64,000 nt of DNA from an uncultured Desulfatiglans sp. GTDB lineage: Bacteria; Desulfobacterota; DSM-4660; Desulfatiglandales; Desulfatiglandaceae. Numbering within the stretch: the first letter of the stretch is position 1; each line of letters opens with the position of its first letter. The DNA is taken from NCBI GenBank assembly GCA_900498135.1, contig LR026961.1, positions 582,874-646,873 of the forward strand, in the 5' to 3' direction. Both the position numbers and the translations under genes were made by a program. Positions 9,051 to 36,151 of this stretch are shown in pieces. The notes below the pieces were generated by a model that had not been told where the DNA came from, did not search any database, and saw only the letters and a list, made by a program, of their open reading frames with translations.

Positions 9051-9238
9051 TTCCATCCGGAAATGGTCTTTTTGGCCGATCTCGGCGTCGATCTGCACGT
9101 TTGCTTGTGCGGCGATCTGCAGGTCGCCTCCGCGCAAACGCTTGATTGCGTTGATATTGGCCAAACCGGGACCCGTCGCGAAGCGGTGGGACTGAGCACG
9201 CGCAGCGTGTAAAGAAAAATCCTCATTTCCGGATGGAA
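9051..9238. mobile_element. MITE-like repeat element with 15-bp terminal inverted repeats
   Basis: This 188-base element begins with TTCCATCCGGAAATG (9051-9065) and ends with its exact reverse complement (9224-9238). Its interior closely matches a second locus at 18501-18942 over most of its length. It contains no convincing gene and lies in the gap between two convergent genes. The size, inverted ends and dispersed copies suggest a non-autonomous transposable element or a structured intergenic repeat. No obvious target-site duplication was seen. Confidence 0.65.
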
Positions 9239-22188: not shown

Positions 22189-22763
22189 AACAGAGGATTG
22201 CATGGATTGGTGCCGGAGTTCTTCTCTGGGGCATTATCGCGGGTCTTGCAGGATGCGCTTCGAGCCCGCCGCTGCCCCCCTCTCCACCCGAATTCACCTA
22301 CGAAGAAGAGGCGATCGAACTCTACATCAAAGCCGATCCCCGCCTGAATTTGTACGACGGGCTGCCGCACACGCTTCTGCTCTGCGTCTATCAGTTGAGG
22401 GATCCCAACAGTTTCCACCAGCTTGCCGACCAGCCGGGGGGCATCTACAAACTCCTCGAGTGCGCCCCCTTCGACGCGAGCGTCGCCGCGGCCAAACGCC
22501 TGATCGTTCACCCCGATCAGGATCTCAAATATCCCCTGGACCGGGCCGAGGGGGCCCGGTACGTCGCGGTCGTAGCAGGATACTACGCCCTCCAGAAGGG
22601 AAACATCATCCGCCTCTTCGATGTCCCCGTGGTCGTGGAAAAACCGGAGGCGAAAGGCCGGCAGCCGGTGTCCCGGCCTGCTCATCTGACCGTCGAGCTG
22701 GACCTGGGCTCCGAACGGATCGAAGATCGACCGGCAAACGATGCTCCACCGAAAACCCCTTGA
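22185..22763 (+). CDS. tssJ: TssJ, T6SS outer-membrane lipoprotein
   Basis: TssJ anchors the T6SS membrane complex to the outer membrane and binds TssM. The 192-residue product has a lipoprotein signal with lipobox L-A-G-C at residues 21-24 and no Asp after the Cys, consistent with outer-membrane sorting. The body carries the TssJ beta-sandwich pattern, including L-L-L-C-V-Y-Q-L-R-D-P-N-S-F. Translation probably starts at a TTG at 22185 that overlaps the previous stop (TTGA) and sits six bases after GGAGG; no ATG gives a sensible signal peptide. A Pro-rich linker follows the lipidated Cys. Confidence 0.88.
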   Translation: MKQRIAWIGAGVLLWGIIAGLAGCASSPPLPPSPPEFTYEEEAIELYIKADPRLNLYDGLPHTLLLCVYQLRDPNSFHQLADQPGGIYKLLECAPFDASVAAAKRLIVHPDQDLKYPLDRAEGARYVAVVAGYYALQKGNIIRLFDVPVVVEKPEAKGRQPVSRPAHLTVELDLGSERIEDRPANDAPPKTP

Positions 22764-22782
22764 AGCGGGAGCGCACGGGACC

Positions 22783-24168
22783 ATGGACAGACCCCTTTTC
22801 TGGCACCAGGGCCTTTTCCTGCAGCCGCAGCATTTTCAACTCGCGGATCGGCACGCCGGGACCTTGCTCCAGCCGTTCCACCGCTTCCTGCAGCCTGACT
22901 TCTGGGGGGTCGGTGACATCGAAATCGCAGAGGCCGCCCTTGGAAACCTGACCTTCGAACTGACGCGGGGAGAATTCATCTTTCCCGACCGGACGCACGC
23001 GGTCTTCCCCGGCAACGCCCTGATCGAAGGCCGATCCTTCGAGGAGGCCTGGGTGAACGGGGGAAAGCCCCTCACGGTCTACGTCGGCCTCAGGCAATGG
23101 AATGAATCCGGTGAAAACGTGACGGTGCTGCCGCGCATCGAACGGCTTTCGGAGATCACCACCCGCTTCACGGCCCCGGTCGACCCGGACGAGATCCAGG
23201 ACCTGCATCAGCAAGGTCCGAGCGGGCAGGTCAAGCGGCTCCACTATGTCCTGCGCATCTTCTGGGAACCGGAGATCAGCCGGCTCGGAGGCTACGCGCT
23301 GGTCCCGGTGGCGAGGCTCGAACGGCGCGCGGAGAAGGTCGTTCTGGACGAGGCATTCTTCCCGCCCTGTCTCGCCGTGACAGCCTGCGCCCCCTTGCTG
23401 GCAACGGTGCGCGAGATCCGCGATCAACTCGCGGCGCGCGGCCGCCAGCTGGAGGCCTACAAGCGCGACCGGGGCATCCATTCGGCCGAATTCGGGGCCC
23501 GGGACATGGTCTACCTGCTGGCGCTGCGATCCCTCAACCGCTACGTGCCGCTTCTCTTCCACCTGACCGAGGCCGAGCCCGTTCACCCCTGGCAAGTCTA
23601 CGCCCTCCTGCGCCAACTGGTAGGAGAGCTCTCCTCCTTTTCGGGCGAGATCAACGCGCTGGGCGAGGGGCCCGGGGGGACCCGACTCCTGCCCCCCTAC
23701 GACCACCGCAACCTCGGGCCCTGTTTCTCGGCCGCACGCTCACTGATCACGCGCCTTCTGGACGAAATCACGGCCGGGCCGGAATATGTCCTGCAGGTCC
23801 TCTTCGACGGAACCTATTTCGCAGCTGAACTGCCGCCGGCCATCTTCGAGGGCCGCATGCGCTACTACCTGGTCTTCGAGACCGAAGCCGACCCTCAGAC
23901 CGTGCTCCGCTCTCTCGAGACGGCCGCCAAAATCGGTTCGCGCGAAACGCTGCCGATCCTGATCGCCCGCGCCCTGCCGGGGGTCCGGCTGGCCCATCTG
24001 CCGGCCCCGCCGCAGGAACTGCCCCGGCGTGCAAGGGCCCTCTACTTCCAGATCGACCACCACAGCGACCAGTGGCTCCCGGTGCAGAAGAACCGCAACC
24101 TCGCCCTTTACTGGGATCAAGCCCCGGAAGACCTCAAGATCGAGCTGATGGTGACGGGGAGGAGATGA
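22783..24168 (+). CDS. tssK: TssK, T6SS baseplate-membrane complex linker
   Basis: TssK connects the baseplate (TssEFG) to the membrane complex. The 461-residue product opens with the family hallmark F-W-H-Q-G-L-F-L-Q-P-Q-H-F-Q shortly after the start. The ATG at 22783 is chosen because it places this motif at residue 5, as in other TssK proteins; an in-frame ATG 42 bases upstream would add an atypical extension over the tssJ end. The stop codon overlaps the tssL region. Confidence 0.95.
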   Translation: MDRPLFWHQGLFLQPQHFQLADRHAGTLLQPFHRFLQPDFWGVGDIEIAEAALGNLTFELTRGEFIFPDRTHAVFPGNALIEGRSFEEAWVNGGKPLTVYVGLRQWNESGENVTVLPRIERLSEITTRFTAPVDPDEIQDLHQQGPSGQVKRLHYVLRIFWEPEISRLGGYALVPVARLERRAEKVVLDEAFFPPCLAVTACAPLLATVREIRDQLAARGRQLEAYKRDRGIHSAEFGARDMVYLLALRSLNRYVPLLFHLTEAEPVHPWQVYALLRQLVGELSSFSGEINALGEGPGGTRLLPPYDHRNLGPCFSAARSLITRLLDEITAGPEYVLQVLFDGTYFAAELPPAIFEGRMRYYLVFETEADPQTVLRSLETAAKIGSRETLPILIARALPGVRLAHLPAPPQELPRRARALYFQIDHHSDQWLPVQKNRNLALYWDQAPEDLKIELMVTGRR

Positions 24169-24170
24169 GC

Positions 24171-24851
24171 ATGCGTTTGACCGATTGCTTCATGGAACTG
24201 ATCGCCTATGTCGCCTATTTCATCCGGGGCGACACCATCCGACAGGCCTCCTTCGAGCAGGTGCGGGCCGACATCCAGCGTCTGATCTCAGGGGCCGAGG
24301 CCCGCTTCGACAGCGGATCCTTCACGCGAGAGGACTACGATCTGGCGCGCTTTGCCGTCTTTGCCTGGATCGACGAGGTGATCCTCAGTTCGCAATGGCC
24401 GGAACGGCAGCGCTGGCAGGGGGAGCAGCTGCAGCGCATCCACTACCAGACCGCCGACGCGGGCGAAGGCTTCTTCGAGCGGCTGAATATGCTCGGGCCT
24501 CATCAGTCGGAGGTCCGCGAGGTCTACTATCTGTGTCTGGCCATGGGCTTCATGGGGCGGTATTGCCATGAAGGGGACGAATACCTCCTCGAGCAGTTGA
24601 AAGCCACCAACCTGAAAGTCCTCTCCGGCAGTTCCATGGCACTGCCCAGCCTGGAAGACCGGGAGCTGTTCCCCGAGGCCTATCCGCCCGAGACGGAGAC
24701 CATGGCGGCCCCTGCGCGGGCAGCCGGGCGTCTGCCCTTTTTCACCCTCGCCTGTATCGGGTGTCCGGTCATCCTGTATGCCGGACTGTTTCTGATCTAC
24801 CGTTTCATCCTGAGCAGCGTCAGCGTAAACGTCCTCAGCGCGGTGCAGTAA
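24171..24851 (+). CDS. tssL: TssL (DotU-like) T6SS inner-membrane protein
   Basis: TssL forms the inner-membrane part of the T6SS with TssM. The 226-residue product is the DotU-type cytoplasmic domain with a C-terminal transmembrane helix (about residues 185-210) and no peptidoglycan-binding extension. The family core C-F-M-E-L-I-A-Y-V is near the N-terminus and the conserved F-A-x-x-A-W-I-D-E segment follows. The ATG at 24171 lies eight bases after GGAGG. An ATG at 24165 overlaps the tssK stop (ATGA) and would add two residues. tssM starts on the base after the stop. Confidence 0.92.
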   Translation: MRLTDCFMELIAYVAYFIRGDTIRQASFEQVRADIQRLISGAEARFDSGSFTREDYDLARFAVFAWIDEVILSSQWPERQRWQGEQLQRIHYQTADAGEGFFERLNMLGPHQSEVREVYYLCLAMGFMGRYCHEGDEYLLEQLKATNLKVLSGSSMALPSLEDRELFPEAYPPETETMAAPARAAGRLPFFTLACIGCPVILYAGLFLIYRFILSSVSVNVLSAVQ

Positions 24852-27800
24852 ATGAAAAGACTCCTCAAAGGGTTTCTCGTCATTCTCGCGGTCCTTCTGG
24901 TCGTCCTCGTGGTGGCCGGCCTGGTCCTGACCCTCGACTGGCCCTGGTGGGTGGGGATCTTCATCCTCGTCGGGCTGGCAGGCGTCTGGCTCGGATTCGT
25001 CTTTCTCGAGAAGGTGCTGCTGCGCCAGCGCGAGGAGCGCTTCGTTCAGCAGGTCATCGCCCAGGACGATGCCTATCTGAAGGGGCTATCCGACCAGGAG
25101 CGGGATCAGGCGCGGGAGGTCCAGGAGCGCTGGCGGGAAGCCGTGACCGCCCTCAAGCAGTCCCACCTCAAAAAGCTCGGCAACCCGCTCTATGTCCTGC
25201 CCTGGTACCTGGTCATCGGAGAAAGCGGTTCCGGCAAGACCACGGCCATCCAAAGCGCCCGGCTTTCAGCGCCCTTTGCGGAAATGACGCGCACCTCGGG
25301 CCTGTCCGGCACCCGCAACTGCGACTGGTGGTTTTTCGACCAGGCGGTGATCATCGACACCGCCGGACGCTACGCCATCCCCGTGGACGAGGGACGGGAC
25401 AAGGAGGAGTGGACGCGCTTCCTGGCCCAATTGGCCAAGTTCCGCAAGAAGGAGCCCCTGAACGGGTTGGTGGTGAGCCTGCCCGCGGACAAGCTGCTTC
25501 AGGGCGACACGGCGCGGCTCGAGGAGGACGGCCGGGCCATCCGGCGCCGTGCCGACGAGCTCATGCGCGTGCTCGGGGCCCGTTTCCCGGTGTACGTGCT
25601 CGTCACCAAATGCGACCTGATCCAGGGGATGACCCAATTCTGCGACCAGCTCCCGGAAAAGGCCCAACAACAGGCCATGGGGTTTGTCAACCGTGATCTG
25701 AAGGCCGGCGTAGAAGACTTCCTCGGCCGGGCCATGCAGACGATCGGCACACGCCTGCGGGAACTGCGCCTGCTGCTGCTTCACCGGGGCGGCACCCGTG
25801 CGGTGGACCCGGCGCTCCTCCTGTTTCCGGAGGAATTCGAGGGCTTGACGCCCGGACTCACGGCCTTTCTGAAGGCCGCTTTCCAGCAAAACCCCTACCA
25901 GGAGACCCCCATCCTGCGCGGCCTCTTTTTCAGCAGCGGCTGCCAGGAAGGAAGCCCCTATTCCCACTTCCTCCAGGCCCTGGGACTCATCGCATCGCGC
26001 GAGGTGCTGCCCGGGACCAGCCGCGGGCTGTTCCTACACGATTTCTTCTCGCGGATCCTGCCAAAGGATCGCCGCCTCTTCGCGCCCACCCAGCGTGCAC
26101 TCGACTGGCGCCGTCTCACCCGAAATCTCGGCCTGAGCGCCTGGGTCGCGCTCGTGCTGGCCGCTTGCGGTCTGCTCAGCTTTTCGTTTGTGCGCAACCT
26201 CTCGAGCCTGCGGCACATCGCGCACGAATTCACAGCCCCTGCAGTTATCCGGGGGGACACCGTCACCGACCTCGCCACCCTGGAGCGCTTCCGGCAGGCC
26301 GCCCTGCGGGTGGAAGACCAGAATCGCAACTGGTGGATCCCCCGGATGGGTCTGCCCGACAGCAAGAAGGTCGAACTGCAGCTGAAGGCGCATTTCTGCA
26401 GGCAATTCCGGAAAGGCCTCCTCGACCCGCTCGACCACACCGAATCAGAAACGGTGATGCGCTTTTCCGCCGCCACGCCCGGGCAGATCATCGGGCCCCA
26501 TGTCGTTCATCTGGTGCGGCGGATCCTCCTTATCAAAGCGCGGCAAGCCGGAGAGGATCTCGAGGCGCTCGAGGCCCGGCCCCAACCGGGCTATGCCGCA
26601 CTTCTGCCGGCAGCCGGACCGCATCTGCCAGAGGAAGCCGTGGACGAGGGGTTCGCTCTTCTCTACCTCCACTATCTGGTGTGGTCTTCCAGGAGTGAGG
26701 ACTTCAACCAGGAGATAGGCGACCTGCAGCGTCTGCTCCAGCACGCCCTCACCCATGAAGGGGCGCGGCTCGACTGGCTGACGGATTACGTCGACACCCG
26801 CACCGCGCTTTCCCCGGTCAAGCTCAAGGATTTCTGGGGGGAGAGTCTGGCCGGGGCCGACTCCCCCGCCGTGCCCCCCTGCTTCACCCGCCAAGGCAAG
26901 GCCTTCATCGAGGGCCTGATCGCAGACATCGAGAACGCCCTGCCGGACCCGGCGCGGCTCGCCGGCCGGAAGACCGCTTTCCTGACCGCCTATGCTGCGG
27001 ACTATCTCCGTAGCTGGCAGGCCTTTGGCGCGGCCTTCCGTCAGGGGGAAGCCGGCCTCGAGGCCGGCGAACCCCGCCGGACGGCGGCGGCGTTGATGGG
27101 AAGCGACCAGGGGCCCTATTTCAACCTCCTTTCGCGGATGGCCGAAGAGCTGGGGCCTTTCTCCGAGCGGCGGGACGACACCGGATGGCCAGACGCGCTG
27201 CTCGCCTTCCGGAATGTGCGCGTCCTGGCGGACAAGGAGGCCCTTGCCGAAGAGAGCCCCGGTCTTTCCAAGGCCGCGAAAAAGGGCAAAGACCTGATCG
27301 GGAGGCTCGAAGAGACATTCAGCCGGGGAGAAGACGACCCGTCGCTGCGGTCGATGATGACGGCCGCCTCGGCCCTGCGTGATTATCGCGCCGCCCTGAT
27401 GGAGATCACCCCCGTCTCGGCCTCGCGCCTCGTCGCCTACCAGACGGCCGCCCAGGTCTTCAGCGAAGACCCGGCAATGAGCAAATCCCCGCTCGTGGCA
27501 GCCCAGAACGCCTACGCACGGCTCAAGGCCGCGATGGCGACGGCGGGCGCCGGATCCGGGTCCGGCTCCGGACTCGTCTGGGACCTGGTCAAGGGCCCTT
27601 TCGACTATCTTTGGACGTATGTCCGGATGGAAACCGCCTGCCATCTGCAGGACTTGTGGGAACAACAGGTGCTGGTGGAAGTCGAAGGCATTTCCGACCT
27701 GCAGCGGGTCAATGAGCTGCTCCTCGGCGACGGGGGTTATGCCCTGCAGTATGTCAAAGGACCCGCGGCCCCTTTTCTCGGACGAAGCCTCGACAGGGGC

Positions 27801-28340
27801 TACTACTCCAAACGGGTGATGGGCGAAGCCATTCCCTTCGAGGGCGCATTCCTCTCCTTCCTTACCCGCGGGGCCCGCACCGCCAGACCGATCGAACAGA
27901 GCTATGCGGTCACCATCAAAGGCCTGCCCACGGACACCAACCCGGAGGCGCACATCCGCCCCCATGCCACGCGCCTGGAACTGCAGTGCGCAGCCCAGAC
28001 CTTCAGCCTGGCGAACTTTCAGTTTCCGATCACCAAGGTTTTCAAGTGGGAACCCCAAACCTGCGGCGACGTCGTCTTTACCATCGAGGTGGGGACCCTG
28101 AGCCTGGTCAAGACCTACACGGGCAACCTGGCCTTTGCTCAGTTTCTGAGGGATTTCAACAGGGGAGAGCGCACGTTCCGGCCGGATGAATTCCCGCGGG
28201 AGGCATCCGCCCTCAAGCAGATGGGGATCAGCTTCATCCGCGCCCGGTACCAGTTCAGCGGTCATGGCGCCGCTGTCAAACTGCTGGCTGCGGGCCCGGG
28301 ACGGGCGCCGAGGACCATCGTGCGGTGCTGGGATCGATGA
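24852..28340 (+). CDS. tssM: TssM (IcmF-like) T6SS inner-membrane protein
   Basis: The 1162-residue TssM spans the envelope from the inner membrane to TssJ. It has two N-terminal membrane helices (about residues 5-55), a cytoplasmic NTPase domain with an intact Walker A G-E-S-G-S-G-K-T at 123-130, a third helix near residue 435, and a long periplasmic part with the IcmF-related region and a C-terminal beta domain. The intact Walker A suggests the ATPase-competent subgroup. It starts directly after the tssL stop, and its own stop overlaps tagF (ATGA). Confidence 0.96.
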   Translation: MKRLLKGFLVILAVLLVVLVVAGLVLTLDWPWWVGIFILVGLAGVWLGFVFLEKVLLRQREERFVQQVIAQDDAYLKGLSDQERDQAREVQERWREAVTALKQSHLKKLGNPLYVLPWYLVIGESGSGKTTAIQSARLSAPFAEMTRTSGLSGTRNCDWWFFDQAVIIDTAGRYAIPVDEGRDKEEWTRFLAQLAKFRKKEPLNGLVVSLPADKLLQGDTARLEEDGRAIRRRADELMRVLGARFPVYVLVTKCDLIQGMTQFCDQLPEKAQQQAMGFVNRDLKAGVEDFLGRAMQTIGTRLRELRLLLLHRGGTRAVDPALLLFPEEFEGLTPGLTAFLKAAFQQNPYQETPILRGLFFSSGCQEGSPYSHFLQALGLIASREVLPGTSRGLFLHDFFSRILPKDRRLFAPTQRALDWRRLTRNLGLSAWVALVLAACGLLSFSFVRNLSSLRHIAHEFTAPAVIRGDTVTDLATLERFRQAALRVEDQNRNWWIPRMGLPDSKKVELQLKAHFCRQFRKGLLDPLDHTESETVMRFSAATPGQIIGPHVVHLVRRILLIKARQAGEDLEALEARPQPGYAALLPAAGPHLPEEAVDEGFALLYLHYLVWSSRSEDFNQEIGDLQRLLQHALTHEGARLDWLTDYVDTRTALSPVKLKDFWGESLAGADSPAVPPCFTRQGKAFIEGLIADIENALPDPARLAGRKTAFLTAYAADYLRSWQAFGAAFRQGEAGLEAGEPRRTAAALMGSDQGPYFNLLSRMAEELGPFSERRDDTGWPDALLAFRNVRVLADKEALAEESPGLSKAAKKGKDLIGRLEETFSRGEDDPSLRSMMTAASALRDYRAALMEITPVSASRLVAYQTAAQVFSEDPAMSKSPLVAAQNAYARLKAAMATAGAGSGSGSGLVWDLVKGPFDYLWTYVRMETACHLQDLWEQQVLVEVEGISDLQRVNELLLGDGGYALQYVKGPAAPFLGRSLDRGYYSKRVMGEAIPFEGAFLSFLTRGARTARPIEQSYAVTIKGLPTDTNPEAHIRPHATRLELQCAAQTFSLANFQFPITKVFKWEPQTCGDVVFTIEVGTLSLVKTYTGNLAFAQFLRDFNRGERTFRPDEFPREASALKQMGISFIRARYQFSGHGAAVKLLAAGPGRAPRTIVRCWDR

Positions 28341-29122
28341 AACCTCGAACCCTGTGGCAATGGACCGCCGCCGGGAAGCACCCGGTGGCCAGGGACTTCA
28401 TAGAGGCAGGCTCCCCGACGCAGCTTTCAAAGGCCTTTTCCGATTGGATCGCTCAAGGCTACCATCGCCTTGGAGAGTCGGAGACCAGGCGGCTGGTCCA
28501 CCAGTCCTGGCGATTCTGGGCGGGGGCAGGGAACCGGAAGGACATCGCCTGCGGCCTCATCAAAGACAGCAGCGACACGCTCGGAAGGCCCTATCCGCTC
28601 TTGATCCTCGGCACCGGGCCGTTGAATCGGTGGCAGGAACGCTGGCCTTCCCTGCTGATCGAATTCAGAGAGATGTACATGCAGATGGAAGGGTTGGCGA
28701 GCCGCCGGTTCGCCGGCTTCAAACCCTTCGAGGAGGCCGTCCGGGGCCTTCCGGCCTCCGGACCTCGGTCGAGCACCGGGTCGACCGAAGGCGGCAAAGG
28801 GATGACCGAGTCGGGGGGCGAACCTGCGGATGTTCCTGCTGAGCCGGATATTCAGGCATGGCGGGCGGAAACCGGTGGAACGGCCTATGTCCTGCCGCTC
28901 CAAAGCAGGATCTCCGGTGGTGAGGAGCAGACCGCCCGCCGGCGGCTCCTCGGATTGAGGGCGGTTCTGGCCGAAAGCCCCCAGGCCGTTTTCGCCGGCG
29001 GAAGCCCGGATCGCGTGTTTTTAGCCGTTTTCCTGCGGGGTCTGACACCCGCCGACTTTGCGCGCTTGTGGCTTTTACCTTTGGAGGAAAGACCATCCCA
29101 TGGACCCGTGGTCTCTCGGTAA
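28337..29122 (+). CDS. tagF: TagF/ImpM-like T6SS accessory protein
   Basis: TagF is known as a post-translational repressor of T6SS assembly that works alongside, or in parallel with, the PpkA/PppA/Fha pathway. The 261-residue product shows the family pattern: an opening with W-Q-W-T-A-A-G-K-H-P-V-A-R-D-F, then A-F-S-D-W-I, and a Y-P-L-L-I-L segment. The ATG at 28337 overlaps the tssM stop, and the 3' end overlaps the tssA start by 23 bases. Its presence fits the kinase/phosphatase genes found in the window. Confidence 0.85.
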   Translation: MKPRTLWQWTAAGKHPVARDFIEAGSPTQLSKAFSDWIAQGYHRLGESETRRLVHQSWRFWAGAGNRKDIACGLIKDSSDTLGRPYPLLILGTGPLNRWQERWPSLLIEFREMYMQMEGLASRRFAGFKPFEEAVRGLPASGPRSSTGSTEGGKGMTESGGEPADVPAEPDIQAWRAETGGTAYVLPLQSRISGGEEQTARRRLLGLRAVLAESPQAVFAGGSPDRVFLAVFLRGLTPADFARLWLLPLEERPSHGPVVSR

Positions 29123-31043
29123 GGAACCGATTCGGCCGGAGCAGCCGGCAGGCGTGGATGCGCGCTACGACCCCGATTTCGAGGCCCTCCAGGCCGAAAT
29201 CGACAAGCTTTCGACGCCTTCCGCCATGGGCGGCACCGACTGGGAAACGGTCGAACGCCTCGCGGCGGCCATTCTTTCCGGCAAATCGAAGGACCTGCTC
29301 GCGGCCAGCTATTTCGCGGTGGCGGCGATCCGCACCCGCGGTCTCGATGATTTGGTGCACGTACCGGGATACCGTGGGCGATTTTCGATTAGAAATAACC
29401 CACGGTATCCCGTGATCCGCACCCGCGGTCTCGATGATTTGGTGCACGTACCGGGATACCGTGGGCGATTTTCGATTAGAAATAACCCACGGTATCCCGT
29501 GATCCGCACCCGCGGTCTCGAAGGTCTCGCTCAGGGTCTGCAGGTCATGGGTGATCTGATCGAACACTTCTGGGAGGATCTCTTTCCGCCGAAGAAACGG
29601 ATGCGCGGCCGGGCGGCGGCCCTCGAATGGTGGGTCGAAAAGAGCGCGGCGGCGCTGGAGGACCTCAAGCCCGAAGGAGCGGCGGCGGAGGCGGTGCAGC
29701 AATACCGTGAGGCCCTGATGCGGGTCGATGCCCTGCTTCAGGCGAACCTCGACAGTCCGCCGCTGACCAGACCCCTCGAACGGTTTATCGATGCCCTACC
29801 GCTGCAGACCGGGGAGGCTGCGGAACCCGCCCAGGGCCCGGCGCCTCCCTCGCTAGAGGCATCGGCTTCAACTGCAGCCGCTGCGCCGGGCGAGGTCCCG
29901 GCGCTCAAGAAGGGGCCTGAGGACACAACGCCTCAATCCGCTCCAGCCCCGGCCGGGGCGGCCGCTTCCGAGCCGCATCCCCTGCGAAGAACCGTCGAAA
30001 ATCCGCCGGCCTCGGCTCCCTCTCCAGGCCCGCCGCAAGAGCCGGTCTCCGGGCCTGCCGCCCCTCCCGCTGGGGTGCGGCCCGAACCCGGCGAGGCAGG
30101 GCCGGGAACCCAGCCCGCCTCAGCGGTCGAGGCGGAAAAGGTCTTGCGCGGCGCCTTTCAGGCGGTCCGGCGGACGGCCGATTATTACCTCGGACAGGAC
30201 CTGAGCGACCCCCGGTCATACCGCCTGCGACGAATCGCGTCCTGGTCCCTGATCCAGGCCCTGCCCCCGGCCGCCGGCGGGAGGACCGAGGTCCCGCCGC
30301 CCATGAACAGGCCCCTTCTGGAAAACGAATGGAAGGGCCTGGAAGCGAAGGGCAGTTGGGAGATCCTGATCCGCAGCGCCGAGGAGCGCCTCCAGAGCGC
30401 CGTCCTGTGGCTCGACCTGAACCGCCTCACGGCCGAGTCCCTGGCTCGGATGGGCCCCCGCTGTGAAGCCGCCCGGGACGCTGTCGTCCATGAGACCGTA
30501 TCCCTGGTCAAGCGCCTCTGCGGAATCGAGGAATTGAGCTTTTCGGACGGGACCCCTTTCGCCGACGGGGCCACACGATCCTGGCTGGAATCCCACCGGC
30601 ACCGGTCGAAAACAGAGGCGCCTGAGACCGTGCAGGGGGCCGCAGCAGGCGCGGCAAACGGCCCGGATGCAGCCTTGCTGGAGCAGGCGCGCGAACTGGC
30701 CGGCCGCAAACGCCTGGCCGAGGCAGCCGAACTGCTGCAGCGCGGTCTATGCAGCGGGACGTCCCGGCGCAGGCAGATGGGATGGCGCCTGAGCCTGTGC
30801 GAATTGCTGCTCGGCGCCGCCGAGACCCAGGCGGCCTTGCCTCAGCTGGAGGCGGTCCTGCAGGACATCGACGCCTTCCAGTTGGAGAGCTGGGACCCGG
30901 ACCTTGCTGTCAAGGCGCTCAGACTCGTCTGGCGCGGATTCAGCGCCGCACCGGCGGACGACGTGCGAAATCGAGGCGCCGCCATCCTCGACCGCATCGC
31001 GAGACTCGCGCCGGCCGACGCCCTGCGTCTGGCCGGACGTTGA
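29100..31043 (+). CDS. tssA: TssA (ImpA-like) with a duplicated in-frame palindromic insertion
   Basis: TssA organises sheath assembly in the T6SS. The 647-residue product has an ImpA_N domain opening with Y-D-P-D-F-E-A-L-Q-A-E, a long Pro/Ala-rich linker (about residues 230-350) and a C-terminal domain. In the N-terminal domain, residues around 76-141 contain three copies of I-R-T-R-G-L separated by two identical 23-residue inserts; the ordinary family sequence would read straight from the first helix into E-G-L. Each insert comes from a palindromic DNA element (29327-29521). The frame is kept, so the gene is likely still expressed, but the helix pair is extended by 58 residues. The ATG at 29100 is 12 bases after GGAGG. 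Confidence 0.9.
   Translation: MDPWSLGKEPIRPEQPAGVDARYDPDFEALQAEIDKLSTPSAMGGTDWETVERLAAAILSGKSKDLLAASYFAVAAIRTRGLDDLVHVPGYRGRFSIRNNPRYPVIRTRGLDDLVHVPGYRGRFSIRNNPRYPVIRTRGLEGLAQGLQVMGDLIEHFWEDLFPPKKRMRGRAAALEWWVEKSAAALEDLKPEGAAAEAVQQYREALMRVDALLQANLDSPPLTRPLERFIDALPLQTGEAAEPAQGPAPPSLEASASTAAAAPGEVPALKKGPEDTTPQSAPAPAGAAASEPHPLRRTVENPPASAPSPGPPQEPVSGPAAPPAGVRPEPGEAGPGTQPASAVEAEKVLRGAFQAVRRTADYYLGQDLSDPRSYRLRRIASWSLIQALPPAAGGRTEVPPPMNRPLLENEWKGLEAKGSWEILIRSAEERLQSAVLWLDLNRLTAESLARMGPRCEAARDAVVHETVSLVKRLCGIEELSFSDGTPFADGATRSWLESHRHRSKTEAPETVQGAAAGAANGPDAALLEQARELAGRKRLAEAAELLQRGLCSGTSRRRQMGWRLSLCELLLGAAETQAALPQLEAVLQDIDAFQLESWDPDLAVKALRLVWRGFSAAPADDVRNRGAAILDRIARLAPADALRLAGR
29327..29521. repeat. 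Two tandem 87-bp palindromic units inserted in frame in tssA
   Basis: The 21-base sequence starting GATCCGCACC occurs at 29327, 29414 and 29501, exactly 87 bases apart. Each unit holds a perfect 14-base inverted repeat, CGGGATACCGTGGG with CCCACGGTATCCCG (first copy 29365-29378 and 29399-29412), around a 20-base AT-rich loop. The unit length is a multiple of three and has no stop in the tssA frame. This resembles palindromic elements that insert within genes and resemble protein-coding spacers. Confidence 0.9.
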
Positions 31044-31071
31044 ACGGTTTCATACCACCAAGGAGGAGATC

Positions 31072-31560
31072 ATGGCCAAAGAAGGATCCGTTGCCCCGCG
31101 TGAAAGGGTGAACATCGTCTACCGTCCGGCTCTGGGCGATGCCCAGGAAGAGGTGGAACTGCCTTTGAAACTCCTGATCCTGGGCGATTTCACCGGCAGG
31201 CCGGATGAGCGGCCCCTCGAAGACCGCGAGCCGATCAACATCGACAAGGACAATTTCAACGAGGTGCTGAAGGCGCAGGGCATCGGGCTGAACATCTCCG
31301 TGCCGAACCGTCTTGCCGAGGAGCCCGACGCGGAGATGAATGTCGACCTGCAGTTCGAGTCCCTTAAAGACTTCGAACCGGAGGCGGTGGCCCGCAAGAC
31401 GCCTGAACTCAAGCGCCTGCTCGAACTGCGCGAGGCCCTGGGCGCACTCAAAGGCCCTTTGAGCAACCTGCCGAATTTCAGAAAGAAGATACAAGAGCTG
31501 GTGAAGGACGAAGCCGCGCGCGAGCAGCTTCTGAAGGAACTCGGCGCGGAAGAAAAATAA
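31072..31560 (+). CDS. tssB: TssB, T6SS contractile sheath small subunit
   Basis: TssB pairs with TssC to form the sheath that drives the Hcp tube outwards. The 162-residue product has the expected length and pattern: L-P-L-K-L-L-I-L-G-D-F near residue 30, the D-F-x-P-E core of the middle, and a charged C-terminus. The ATG at 31072 follows AAGGAGG by five to six bases. Adjacent tssC follows after 22 bases. Confidence 0.95.
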   Translation: MAKEGSVAPRERVNIVYRPALGDAQEEVELPLKLLILGDFTGRPDERPLEDREPINIDKDNFNEVLKAQGIGLNISVPNRLAEEPDAEMNVDLQFESLKDFEPEAVARKTPELKRLLELREALGALKGPLSNLPNFRKKIQELVKDEAAREQLLKELGAEEK

Positions 31561-31582
31561 GCCAACAGGGGGAGATTGTGCC

Positions 31583-33073
31583 ATGGCAGAAGAACGCGAG
31601 CAGCAGGCTGCCGCCGCCGCTCCTGCGGAAGCGACGGAGGAGCGCTCAATCCTGGACGAAATCGTTCAGGCCACCAGACTTCAACCCTCGGACGAGGCCT
31701 ATGGGGTGACGAAACGGGGGGTCGAGGCGCTGATCACCCAACTCCTGGAGCCGGGGCGCGAGATGCCCAAGATCTCGAAGGCGGTGGTCGACGAGATGAT
31801 CGCGGAGATCGACAAGCGCCTCGGGATGCAGTTGGACGTCATCCTGCACCACCCCGATTTTCAGAAGCTCGAATCGGCCTGGCGCTCGATGAAGTACCTG
31901 ATCGACAAGACCGATTTCCGGGAAAACAACAAGATCGAGATCCTGAACGTCAGCAAGGAGGACCTTCTCGAGGACTTCGAGGACGCCCCTGAGATCACCA
32001 AATCCGGGCTCTACAAGACCGTCTATACGGCGGAATACGGCCAGTTCGGCGGACAGCCCTACGCGGCGATGATCGGGAATTACGCCTTCGGGGCCGGTCC
32101 CCTGGACATCAAACTCCTGCAATATCTGGCGAGCGTGGCCTCCATGGCCCATGCGCCCTTTATCGGCGCCGCCGGGCAGGCCATGTTCGGCCTGGACGAT
32201 TTCAACGGGCTGCCTCAGCTGAAGGATCTGAAATCCATCTTCGAGGGGCCTCAGTACACCAAGTGGCAGTCGTTCCGGCAGAGCGAGGATGCCCGATACG
32301 TCGGGCTGGCCCTGCCGCGCTTCCTGCTGCGCCTGCCTTACGGGCCGGAGACCGCGCCCGTCAAGGCCTTCGGTTACCAGGAAGACGTCTCGGCCAACCA
32401 CGGCGACTACCTCTGGGGCAACGCCGCCTTCGCCTTCGCGACACGCCTGACGGACAGCTTCGCCAAGTATCGCTGGTGCGCGAACATCATCGGCCCGAAG
32501 GGCGGGGGCACCGTGGAGGACCTGCCCCTGCACCAGTACGAGGCGATGGGGGCCATCCAGACCAAGATCCCGACCGAGGTGCTGATCAGCGAACGGCGGG
32601 AATACGAACTGGCCGAAGAGGGCTTCATCGCCCTGACCATGCGCAAGGGGAGCGACAACGCCGCCTTCTTCTCGGCCAACTCGGTCCAGAAGCCCAAATT
32701 CTTCGGGATCAGCAAGGAGGGGAAGGAGGCCGAACTGAACTACAAGCTGGGACTGCAACTGCCTTACATGTTCGTCATCAACCGCCTGGCCCATTACCTG
32801 AAGGTCATCCAGCGGGAAAACATCGGCACCTGGAAGGAAAGGGCCGATCTCGAGCGCGAGTTGAACACCTGGATCACGCAATACGTGGTCAACATGGACA
32901 ACCCCGCGCCGGAGGTCCGCAGCCGGCGGCCGCTTCGGCAGGCGCAGGTGACCGTCGAGGACGTGGAGGGCGAGCCGGGCTGGTACAGGGTCGGATTGAA
33001 GGTCAGGCCTCATTTCAAATACATGGGGGCCTTCTTCACCCTCTCCCTGGTCGGCAAACTGGACAAGGAATAA
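31583..33073 (+). CDS. tssC: TssC, T6SS contractile sheath large subunit
   Basis: The 496-residue TssC has the classic length and motifs, such as F-Q-K-L-E-S-A-W-R-S-M-K-Y-L and L-P-R-F-L-L-R-L-P-Y-G. It polymerises with TssB. The ATG at 31583 follows GGGGGAG by eight bases. A separate TssB-TssC-like fused protein is encoded near the right end of the window and is much more diverged. Confidence 0.96.
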   Translation: MAEEREQQAAAAAPAEATEERSILDEIVQATRLQPSDEAYGVTKRGVEALITQLLEPGREMPKISKAVVDEMIAEIDKRLGMQLDVILHHPDFQKLESAWRSMKYLIDKTDFRENNKIEILNVSKEDLLEDFEDAPEITKSGLYKTVYTAEYGQFGGQPYAAMIGNYAFGAGPLDIKLLQYLASVASMAHAPFIGAAGQAMFGLDDFNGLPQLKDLKSIFEGPQYTKWQSFRQSEDARYVGLALPRFLLRLPYGPETAPVKAFGYQEDVSANHGDYLWGNAAFAFATRLTDSFAKYRWCANIIGPKGGGTVEDLPLHQYEAMGAIQTKIPTEVLISERREYELAEEGFIALTMRKGSDNAAFFSANSVQKPKFFGISKEGKEAELNYKLGLQLPYMFVINRLAHYLKVIQRENIGTWKERADLERELNTWITQYVVNMDNPAPEVRSRRPLRQAQVTVEDVEGEPGWYRVGLKVRPHFKYMGAFFTLSLVGKLDKE

Positions 33074-33135
33074 ACGAAACGAAACACCCAGGGTAGCTTT
33101 TTTCGCGGGCGAAACCAGAAAGGGGGGCAGGAACC

Positions 33136-33627
33136 ATGGCTCAGACCGTACATCTTTTCCTCAAGGCCAATGGTCAGGACATCCAGGGGGACTCCACCAT
33201 CACCTCCATGGAGCGGGAAAACTCGATCGAGTGCCTTTCCTTCAAGGACTCGGTCCGGACGGCGCGCGAGGCCGCCACAGGCATGGCGACCGGGCAGAGG
33301 ACCTATGAGCCGCTCCGGATCGTCAAGCGGATCGACAAGAGCTCGCCGCTCCTGTTCAAGGCGCTGACAAACAACGAGGTCATCGAAGGCGTCTTCAAGT
33401 TTTATCGGCCCAACCCCGCCGGCGACGGCTCCACCCAGTACTTTTTCACCATCGAGATCCAGGAGGGGCGGATCTCGACAATCACACGGTTCAGCCCCGA
33501 CGTCATCGATCCGGCATCGGCCAACACACCGCCCACCGAAGAGGTGTCGTTCGTTTTCGGGTACATCCGGATGTGCTACGAACCCGACGGCGTCGAACAT
33601 ATCGACCATTGGAGTGAACGTACCTGA
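33136..33627 (+). CDS. hcp: Hcp (TssD), T6SS tube protein
   Basis: Hcp forms the hexameric inner tube that is ejected with its effectors. The 163-residue product has the family length and beta-barrel pattern, starting M-A-Q-T-V-H-L-F-L-K and including T-G-x-R-T-Y-E-P and a K-A-L-T-N segment. It follows tssC by 62 bases with a good Shine-Dalgarno. The stop codon overlaps a CTG of the following unexplained reading frame. Confidence 0.95.
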   Translation: MAQTVHLFLKANGQDIQGDSTITSMERENSIECLSFKDSVRTAREAATGMATGQRTYEPLRIVKRIDKSSPLLFKALTNNEVIEGVFKFYRPNPAGDGSTQYFFTIEIQEGRISTITRFSPDVIDPASANTPPTEEVSFVFGYIRMCYEPDGVEHIDHWSERT

Positions 33628-33925
33628 CAGGGCTTTCATGCTGGTGCTGCATCGACGAGGCCGCCGGAGGCCCTGATGCGGGAGAGCGCTTTGCGGCGAT
33701 CGGAACGGATGGCGAAGGGCCCGACCCGGCGATGGAACGGCGGTCTTCGGGTCTCTATCGAGGAAAGGACCTGTCGCGCCGGGTTGTGCCGCTCTATCCT
33801 CAGAGGTGCCCTGCCGACTGCGCGGCCGATTCCGGCAGGGAAGGGCAAGGCCGGATGGTCCTGCAGCTGCCGGAAGGGATCATCGATCCCCGCCGGGCCG
33901 ATCACTGGGCGCGGAGCGACCAATC
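33624..33925 (+). other. Unassigned open frame between hcp and tssE, possible CTG-start or decayed gene
   Basis: A frame without stops opens with CTG at 33624, overlapping the hcp stop (CTGA) with GGAG nine bases before it. Its third codon positions are GC-rich but less so than in the neighbouring genes. It has no ATG/GTG/TTG start before 33732. It continues past the tssE start to 34100, which would need an implausible 175-base overlap; shifting by one base would end it at 33933. It could be a short gene with a frameshift, or a decayed gene. No family is recognised. Confidence 0.35.
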
Positions 33926-34339
33926 ATGCGTGAAGACAGACTGCTCGAGCGGATCCGGACCTGGAAGGCGTCGCCCCTCGCACGGGCGCGCGAAGATCCC
34001 ATGCGCGTCGTCGAGTCCGTGCTCGGGCACCTGCAGAGGATCCTCAACACCCGGCAGGGCAGTGTCCCCATCGCCGAGGACTACGGGCTACCGGATCTGA
34101 CGGACATCAATGCAGACTATCCGGACTCCCTGACGCGCTTCGAGCGGGCGATACGACTGACGATCCAGAAATACGAACCTCGGCTGAAGGTGATCCGCGT
34201 CCGTTTCGTTCCGGATGAAGAGGATCTGCTGTCCCTGCGGTTCCAGATCGTCGGGAAGCTGGCCGCCGAGGACCTCAAGGATACCGTCTATTTCGAGAGC
34301 GTGGTGGAATCGGACGGCCGGGTCAGTGTCAAGCGCTGA
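33926..34339 (+). CDS. tssE: TssE, T6SS baseplate gp25-like protein
   Basis: TssE is the gp25-like wedge component of the baseplate. The 137-residue product shows the gp25 pattern with the stretch N-T-R-Q-G-S-V-P-I and the Y-G-L-P-D-L segment, then an E-P-R-L-x-V region. The ATG at 33926 has GGAG about nine bases upstream; longer in-frame starts would run into the unassigned frame upstream. Confidence 0.92.
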   Translation: MREDRLLERIRTWKASPLARAREDPMRVVESVLGHLQRILNTRQGSVPIAEDYGLPDLTDINADYPDSLTRFERAIRLTIQKYEPRLKVIRVRFVPDEEDLLSLRFQIVGKLAAEDLKDTVYFESVVESDGRVSVKR

Positions 34340-34417
34340 CCGATCCGGGGTGTCCGAAAAGACATCGACCTTCAACCGAACCCTCTTCCGACGGCGTGCA
34401 AGGAGCGGCAGGGATCG

Positions 34418-36151
34418 ATGATCAGCCGATATTTTCAGCAGGAGCTGGCGCAGCTGAGAGAGCTCGGCGAGGAGTTCGCCCGGGCGCACCCTGCCGTCGC
34501 CCCCATGCTCGGCGGGGCCGGCGCGGACCCCGATGTCGAGCGCCTCCTCGAAGGCGTGGCCTTTCTGACGGCCCAGATCAGGGAGAAGATCGAGGACGAC
34601 TTCCCCGAGATCATCCATGAGCTGATCCAGCTCATCTGGCCGCACTATCTGCGGCCGATCCCCTGCACCACCGTGATCGCCTTCAAGCCCAAGCCCATGC
34701 TCAAGCAGCCCCTGATCATCGCAAGAGGCGCCCAGATCGCGTCCGTTCCGGTCGAAGGGACGCCGTGCCTCTTCCGAACCTGCTGCGATGTGGAGCTCCA
34801 CCCGCTCCACCTGCTCGAGGCATCGTATATCGAAGCGGCGGGCCATCCGCCCGCCGTCCGCATCCTCCTCGAGCTGCGCGGCATGAAACTCGCCGATTGG
34901 ACCCCCCGCACCCTGAGGCTCTTTCTGGGAGGCGGGTATGCCCAGTCAGCCGACCTCTACCTCCTGCTGCGCAGAAGTCTCCACCGGGTTTTGCTCACAC
35001 CCGCGGAGGGAGGCGCATCCTGTGCCCTCCCGCCGGATGCCCTGCAGCCCGCCGGGTTTTCCCCCGCAGAGGCGCTCCTCCCTTATCCGCCGCATTCCTT
35101 TCCGGGCTATCGGATCCTGCAGGAATACTTCATCCTCCCGGAAAAATTCTGCTTCCTGGACTTGAACGGCTGGGAGCGCTGGCGCGATCGAGGTCCCGGC
35201 GACCGGTTCGAGATCGTGTTCGAACTGGACCACACCCCGTCACCCCCTCCCAGGATCCGCAGGGAACATGTCGTCCTCGGGGCCGCCACGGCCGTCAACC
35301 TCTTCGGCCACGACGCGGATCCGATCAGGCTGGACCACCGGACGACCGGCTATCCGGTGCGCCCTTCCGGCGTCAACACCCAGCACTACCAGGTCTACGA
35401 CATCCAGGAGGTCATCGGGGTGGCTCAGGGTAGCGCCCGGCAGCGCGCCTATCAGCCCTTCGAGGTCTTCAGCGCCCAGGGAGGACCCGTGCCGGTCTAT
35501 CAGAAGGTCTTCCGCCCTTCCCCTGTCCGGGCCGGGTACGACGTCTCCCTGTCGGTGTCCTATCCCCCCGGAGAGGGCCTGCCTGCGCCGGAGACCCTCT
35601 CCATCCGGCTGCTCTGCACGAACGGAACCCTCCCGGAAAACCTGCGTGCCGGGGACATCGCGCTGCCGACCAGCCGTTCGCCCGAATTCGCCGAGTTCGC
35701 CAATATCCGTCCGCCTGCGCCCAACATCCTGCCGCCGCTCGGCTCCAACCTCCTCTGGCGCCTGCTGGGGCATCTGTCGCTCAATTACCTCTCCCTGCAG
35801 AAGCCCGAGCATCTGCGGGCGCTGCTCGAACTCTACATCTTTCCCCAGAGCCGGGACCGCCGTGCGGTCCTAGCCAACCGCAAGCGCATCGAGGGCATCC
35901 AGGGCATCCACGTGCTCCCGGCCGACCGGCTGATCTCGGGCATCCCGATGCGGGGTCGCCACATCATCCTCCAGATGCGTCAGGACCACTTTGCCGGAGC
36001 AGGAGACCTGTTTCTCTTCGGTTGCGTCCTGGATTATTTTCTTGGCGTCTATGCCTCTCTCAACACCTTTACACGGATCGAGATCGAAGAGGTCCTGAAA
36101 GGAGAACGTCTGCAATGGCCGGCCAGGGTGGGAGACCGTTTTCTGATCTGA
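34418..36151 (+). CDS. tssF: TssF, T6SS baseplate protein
   Basis: The 577-residue TssF has the usual length and opens with the family pattern Y-F-Q-Q-E-L-A-Q-L-R-E-L-G-x-E-F. The C-terminal half contains the R-P-S-P-V-R-A-G-Y-D segment. With TssE, TssG and TssK it forms the baseplate wedge. Its 3' end overlaps tssG by 37 bases, consistent with coupled translation. Confidence 0.95.
   Translation: MISRYFQQELAQLRELGEEFARAHPAVAPMLGGAGADPDVERLLEGVAFLTAQIREKIEDDFPEIIHELIQLIWPHYLRPIPCTTVIAFKPKPMLKQPLIIARGAQIASVPVEGTPCLFRTCCDVELHPLHLLEASYIEAAGHPPAVRILLELRGMKLADWTPRTLRLFLGGGYAQSADLYLLLRRSLHRVLLTPAEGGASCALPPDALQPAGFSPAEALLPYPPHSFPGYRILQEYFILPEKFCFLDLNGWERWRDRGPGDRFEIVFELDHTPSPPPRIRREHVVLGAATAVNLFGHDADPIRLDHRTTGYPVRPSGVNTQHYQVYDIQEVIGVAQGSARQRAYQPFEVFSAQGGPVPVYQKVFRPSPVRAGYDVSLSVSYPPGEGLPAPETLSIRLLCTNGTLPENLRAGDIALPTSRSPEFAEFANIRPPAPNILPPLGSNLLWRLLGHLSLNYLSLQKPEHLRALLELYIFPQSRDRRAVLANRKRIEGIQGIHVLPADRLISGIPMRGRHIILQMRQDHFAGAGDLFLFGCVLDYFLGVYASLNTFTRIEIEEVLKGERLQWPARVGDRFLI

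Follow-up and report, generated by a model that had tools for sequence, protein, structure and literature searches.

Inside the tssA gene of this uncultured Desulfatiglans genome (G000) lies a tandem palindromic insert that leaves the reading frame open, and the question that it raises is whether such DNA is a mobile element, a product of the cell or a product of sequencing and assembly. In the window, by which we mean the whole 64,000-nucleotide stretch analysed, tssA occupies positions 29100..31043 of the + strand (ORF 29058..31043, ATG at 29100), and was identified from Pfam matches to PF06812 (ImpA_N, E=1.3e-28) and PF16989 (T6SS_VasJ, the C-terminal domain, E=7.4e-60) as well as from its orthologue in a genome of the same genus (G001). 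It sits in an apparently intact T6SS cluster (22741-36151), in which frames resembling tssK, tssL, tssM, tagF, tssB, tssC, hcp, tssE and tssF were recognised by position and sequence, only tssA being checked against families. Two 87-base units, 100% identical, span 29327-29413 and 29414-29500, each made up of a 66-base insert and a 21-base block. The block, GATCCGCACCCGCGGTCTCGA, is found three times (29327..29347, 29414..29434 and 29501..29521), with the two identical 66-bp foldback inserts on the + strand at 29348..29413 and 29435..29500. Arm search and folding located in both units a perfect 14-base inverted repeat around a 20-nt loop, the arms being CGGGATACCGTGGG (29365..29378, + strand, in copy 1) and CCCACGGTATCCCG (29399..29412, - strand); those of copy 2 lie at 29452-29465 and 29486-29499. 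The 66-mer folds with -18.8 kcal/mol (z = -5.2; no shuffle was equally stable). This anatomy bears out the original prediction, which had described the paired units, their hairpins and the threefold 21-base segment, and had placed them in the N-terminal domain: the insertion point falls in ImpA_N, between a stretch ending AAIRTRG and one starting LEGL, probably in a loop joining two helices.

Had these bases been gained by G000 or lost by its relatives? G001 is 97.3% identical to G000 over the kilobases that flank the insertion, and its intact tssA of 589 aa carries the 21-mer once and exactly 174 bp fewer. Given this exact empty site, the 174 bases must therefore have been added in G000, so that the comparison with close relatives proposed in the original prediction upheld its view of the ancestral gene; orthologues in seven other relatives likewise lack the insertion. 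As had also been predicted, the added length is a multiple of three and the frame, now 647 aa, is open. In itself the open frame is unsurprising, because a shuffled insert is free of stops in the tssA frame 32% of the time.

A strong hairpin, a clean empty site and an open frame might together commend a new mobile palindromic family that enters protein genes without shifting the frame and duplicates 21 bp of target, in the manner of Rickettsia palindromic elements (RPEs). The search of the genome and its relatives that had been suggested for this possibility returned the tssA locus alone. Neither the 66-mer nor its arms had a second locus in the 4.8-Mb G000 genome or appeared in the relatives searched across class and phylum, and the exact arms had no match in an 85,000-species genome collection or in viral contigs; Blastn of the insert against annotated phages and plasmids gave no match either. 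When the arms were relaxed to 10 bp, 12 genome matches and 1 viral match were obtained; neither loops nor flanks were related to those in tssA, and the 12 look like independent hairpins of other bacteria. Rfam returned only microRNA matches for the hairpin, all of them sub-threshold, and Pfam nothing above curated cut-offs for the 58-aa spacer. With the 66-mer confined to one locus in the genome and absent from all collections searched, the predicted family is already largely refuted.

A spontaneous local event, that is, replication slippage or template switching followed by tandem duplication and independent of any other locus, would fit tssA as the sole multi-unit case in coding sequence and the failure to find a donor. 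Against it, matches to the 66 bases elsewhere in the host genome do not exceed 14 nt, their GC content is 50% in a context of 63% (300-bp flanks), and their shape, direct-repeat length and tandem form agree with what we found at other loci. We therefore hold such an event to be very improbable.

Those other loci came from a scan for direct repeats flanking foldbacks, which covered 1.8 Mb of the 4.8 Mb of G000 and picked out ten, tssA and nine sister loci, with direct repeats of 20-35 bp and stems of 13 bp or more. The sister insertions affect genes for an aminotransferase, a RidA-like protein, an ABC transporter, a CdhE-like protein, a phage-tail-like protein, two HdrA-related proteins and an MFS transporter (names read from the translations; tssA alone was checked against families), and the ninth is an intergenic tandem pair at 1,662,225, as in tssA. 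Nearly all of them lie in unrelated genes, and each has its own sequence, unrelated to the others. At two weaker loci, which lie in genes for a thioredoxin and a sigma-54 activator, the direct repeats measure 22-23 bp, the stem is short or missing, and the insert resembles the same gene. The aminotransferase insertion (G000:C1:690583-690750), detected by aligning 200 kb of G000 with G001, is in frame, with 135 bp inserted, a 33-bp direct repeat and a 45-bp perfect inverted repeat; it shares no sequence with the tssA insert, and part of it codes for a diverged form of the gene segment in which it sits. The recognition of this insert as a divergent piece of the same gene told against a Cas1-like or integrase-like mechanism with duplication of 21 bp, and that reading was dropped.

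All ten sites compared with G001 (tssA, aminotransferase and eight others) are empty there, the eight further loci being single and empty at 93-98% identity. Applied to G001 (197 kb) and to G004 (320 kb), a genome that belongs to the same family but to a different genus, the scan yielded zero foldback loci, a result that is supportive but not overwhelming, as ~3 would be expected at the G000 rate. In the ten loci measured, the insert is always AT-richer than its flanks (GC 43-55% vs 54-66%); the GC content of G004 is 52%. In-frame insertion, which the original prediction had noted, holds for tssA but not as a property of the class: across the twelve loci, the two weaker ones included, net lengths divided by three leave remainders of 0, 1 and 2 in 5, 3 and 4 cases, so that 7 of 12 would shift the frame, and among the five in-frame insertions there is one that contains a stop.

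What, then, are the inserts made of? Matching them against the class brought up G004, which the nine sister inserts match mostly at 97-100%, while the flanking genes of the two organisms are only ~75-88% alike. Every one of the nine, that of the aminotransferase among them, resolves into G004 pieces in alternating orientation (forward-reverse-forward) within ~60-200 bp. Eight come from the G004 counterpart of the gene that they interrupt, and a region of G004 supplies the match for the ninth, the intergenic pair. At the joints between the pieces of a foldback there is little or no overlap. The ends of the sister direct repeats coincide with the points at which identity between G000 and G004 stops; therefore the direct repeat is a block shared by the two species and not a duplicated target. 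The target duplication of the original prediction is thereby contradicted at the nine sister loci, and probably at tssA as well. These inserts, unrelated to one another in sequence and mostly derived from the target gene's own counterpart, also speak against a mobile palindromic family, as no pair of related copies, alike in sequence and in their ends, turned up among the loci found; we now give that reading next to no credence. Insert matches of 100% in G004 were a further reason to drop both a mobile element and a Cas1-like or integrase-like mechanism.

For tssA itself the donor was not found; no long piece of its insert matched in the genomes searched. In G004 we detected neither a tssA gene nor any stretch of the insert above the length expected by chance. 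When the insert was unfolded into a 73-nt guess at the donor, the guess aligned at 91% over 35 nt with an MscS-like gene of G362, a distant genome (E=1.2e-6 per genome); this is only a lead, being one such match among 395 genomes and one that a protein match did not confirm. In a large metagenome, some unrelated gene may by coincidence contain the same 21-base block, given how short it is. With its 21-bp direct repeat, foldback, empty site in G001, lower GC and tandem form, tssA resembles the sister loci, and this anatomy suggests that it belongs to the same class.

The composition of the inserts could have arisen in the cell, if DNA of a neighbouring species had been taken up, had annealed at ~20 bp of identity and had left a scar after two template switches, with a later tandem duplication in tssA. 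That the direct repeats are interspecies identity blocks and that nearly all inserts derive from the corresponding gene would suit this sequence of events, as would the three insertions that are both open and in frame (tssA, aminotransferase and thioredoxin); high identity would equally be expected if species living together really exchanged DNA. Several observations weigh on the other side, namely a count of ten loci in the 1.8 Mb of G000 scanned against zero in 0.5 Mb from two relatives, the broken frames of conserved housekeeping genes (among the broken genes are those for the ABC transporter, the MFS transporter and an HdrA-like protein), and an assembly rich in gaps and unmerged overlaps. 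We consider this cellular route very unlikely. Were the insertions real, the lineage would repeatedly be taking in short foldback copies of neighbour DNA at ~20-bp identity blocks and scarring its genes, a proposition that strikes us as very unlikely. If it were true, it would amount to a previously undescribed interspecies template-switch mutagenesis, sometimes in frame and with an occasional tandem duplication.

The condition of the assembly bears directly on this choice. Nominally a single contig, the sequence has 125 N runs in 1.4 Mb, some of which may not be original assembly gaps. Single Ns at G000:C1:898398, 1180519 and 1726858 are flanked on both sides by exact repeats (64, 70 and 83 bp), and these three joints are typical of unmerged contig overlaps, here in a nominally single-contig genome. 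The window contains no N, which counts against a technical origin. Other irregularities were observed along the contig. A phage-like region (G000:C1:1705000-1776000) with many single Ns and long N runs suggests a mixed or poorly resolved prophage population, and an 8.7-kb segment without counterpart in G001 (G000:C1:654966-663703) includes a 795-base N run. Separately, a dispersed, MITE-like repeat with the core TTGGCCAATCTCGGCGTCAATCTGCACGTTTGC, ~140-190 bp long and often in tandem, occurs genus-wide; it is found at 9072, 18583 and 18689 of the window and at ~90 further sites in G000:500-2300 kb, and several sites have it in only one of the two genomes G000 and G001.

Taken together, these results lead us to regard the tssA insertion as very probably a technical chimera of sequencing or assembly and not a mobile element, and for the step itself we infer a technical rather than a cellular origin. 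The original prediction had named an artificial repeat as one finding that would overturn it, and, as read from the assembled sequence, an artificial repeat is most likely what tssA contains. The sample that was assembled probably held other bacteria too, including a close match to G004. At an exact block of ~20 bases or more common to both species, the assembled path would exit the host, cross a short forward-reverse-forward foldback of the other organism's DNA and re-enter the host via the identical block, which would thus be doubled and mimic a target-site duplication, while the foldback stretch would show up as a palindrome in the contig. Two passes through the loop would account for the two 87-base units and the three 21-base blocks of tssA. 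A pure de Bruijn-graph error was rejected, the foldback joints being without overlaps of 20 bp or more; with so little overlap at these joints, or none, chimeric molecules or reads have to be invoked too. The order of events would then be foldback chimeric molecules or reads first, followed by assembly or gap-filling through the shared blocks.

A technical chimera of this kind removes a tempting 'new palindromic element' and flags an assembly-wide problem: palindromes within genes, direct repeats, frameshifts and 'extra peptides' of this contig would be untrustworthy without the reads. The signature, a direct repeat of at least 20 bp around a foldback whose pieces align to a different genome in alternating orientation, could serve as a simple screen for chimeric metagenome assemblies.

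Among known systems, RPEs form ~150-bp families of many copies, each encoding a conserved peptide (PMC10969869). The tssA palindrome resembles them in being inserted in frame, and open, in a protein gene, but it occupies one locus without a family and has no conserved peptide, and the other foldback insertions are unrelated in sequence. Nor does it behave as a MITE or another DNA transposon derivative, as direct-repeat length varies over 20-35 bp where a target-site duplication would be of fixed length, and the inverted repeat stops short of the left end of the tssA insert. Comparable too are errors of contig overlap and gap closure in draft scaffolds, since the insert ends carry direct repeats and the same scaffold has 64-83-bp overlaps around a single N; ordinary overlap errors are plain duplications, whereas at the sister loci the added DNA is foreign and folded back. 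Foldback chimeras are a well-known artefact of whole-genome amplification, where over 85% of chimeras were inverted in PMC1855051 and palindromic reads are common (PMC6218980). Judged from the contig sequence alone, the sister loci are like such MDA foldback chimeras in their inverted pieces, the little or no microhomology at the joints, the short distance between the pieces and the palindromic products, of which several foldbacks are possible per molecule (PMC1855051, PMC6218980). They differ from MDA chimeras alone in that entry and exit through two-species blocks of at least 20 bp need mis-assembly, gap-filling or in-vitro recombination in addition. Of the features that mark a two-species chimera, inverted adjacent pieces of the other organism's DNA are seen at the nine sister loci, and absence from an independent genome of the same genus at the ten sites that are empty in G001.
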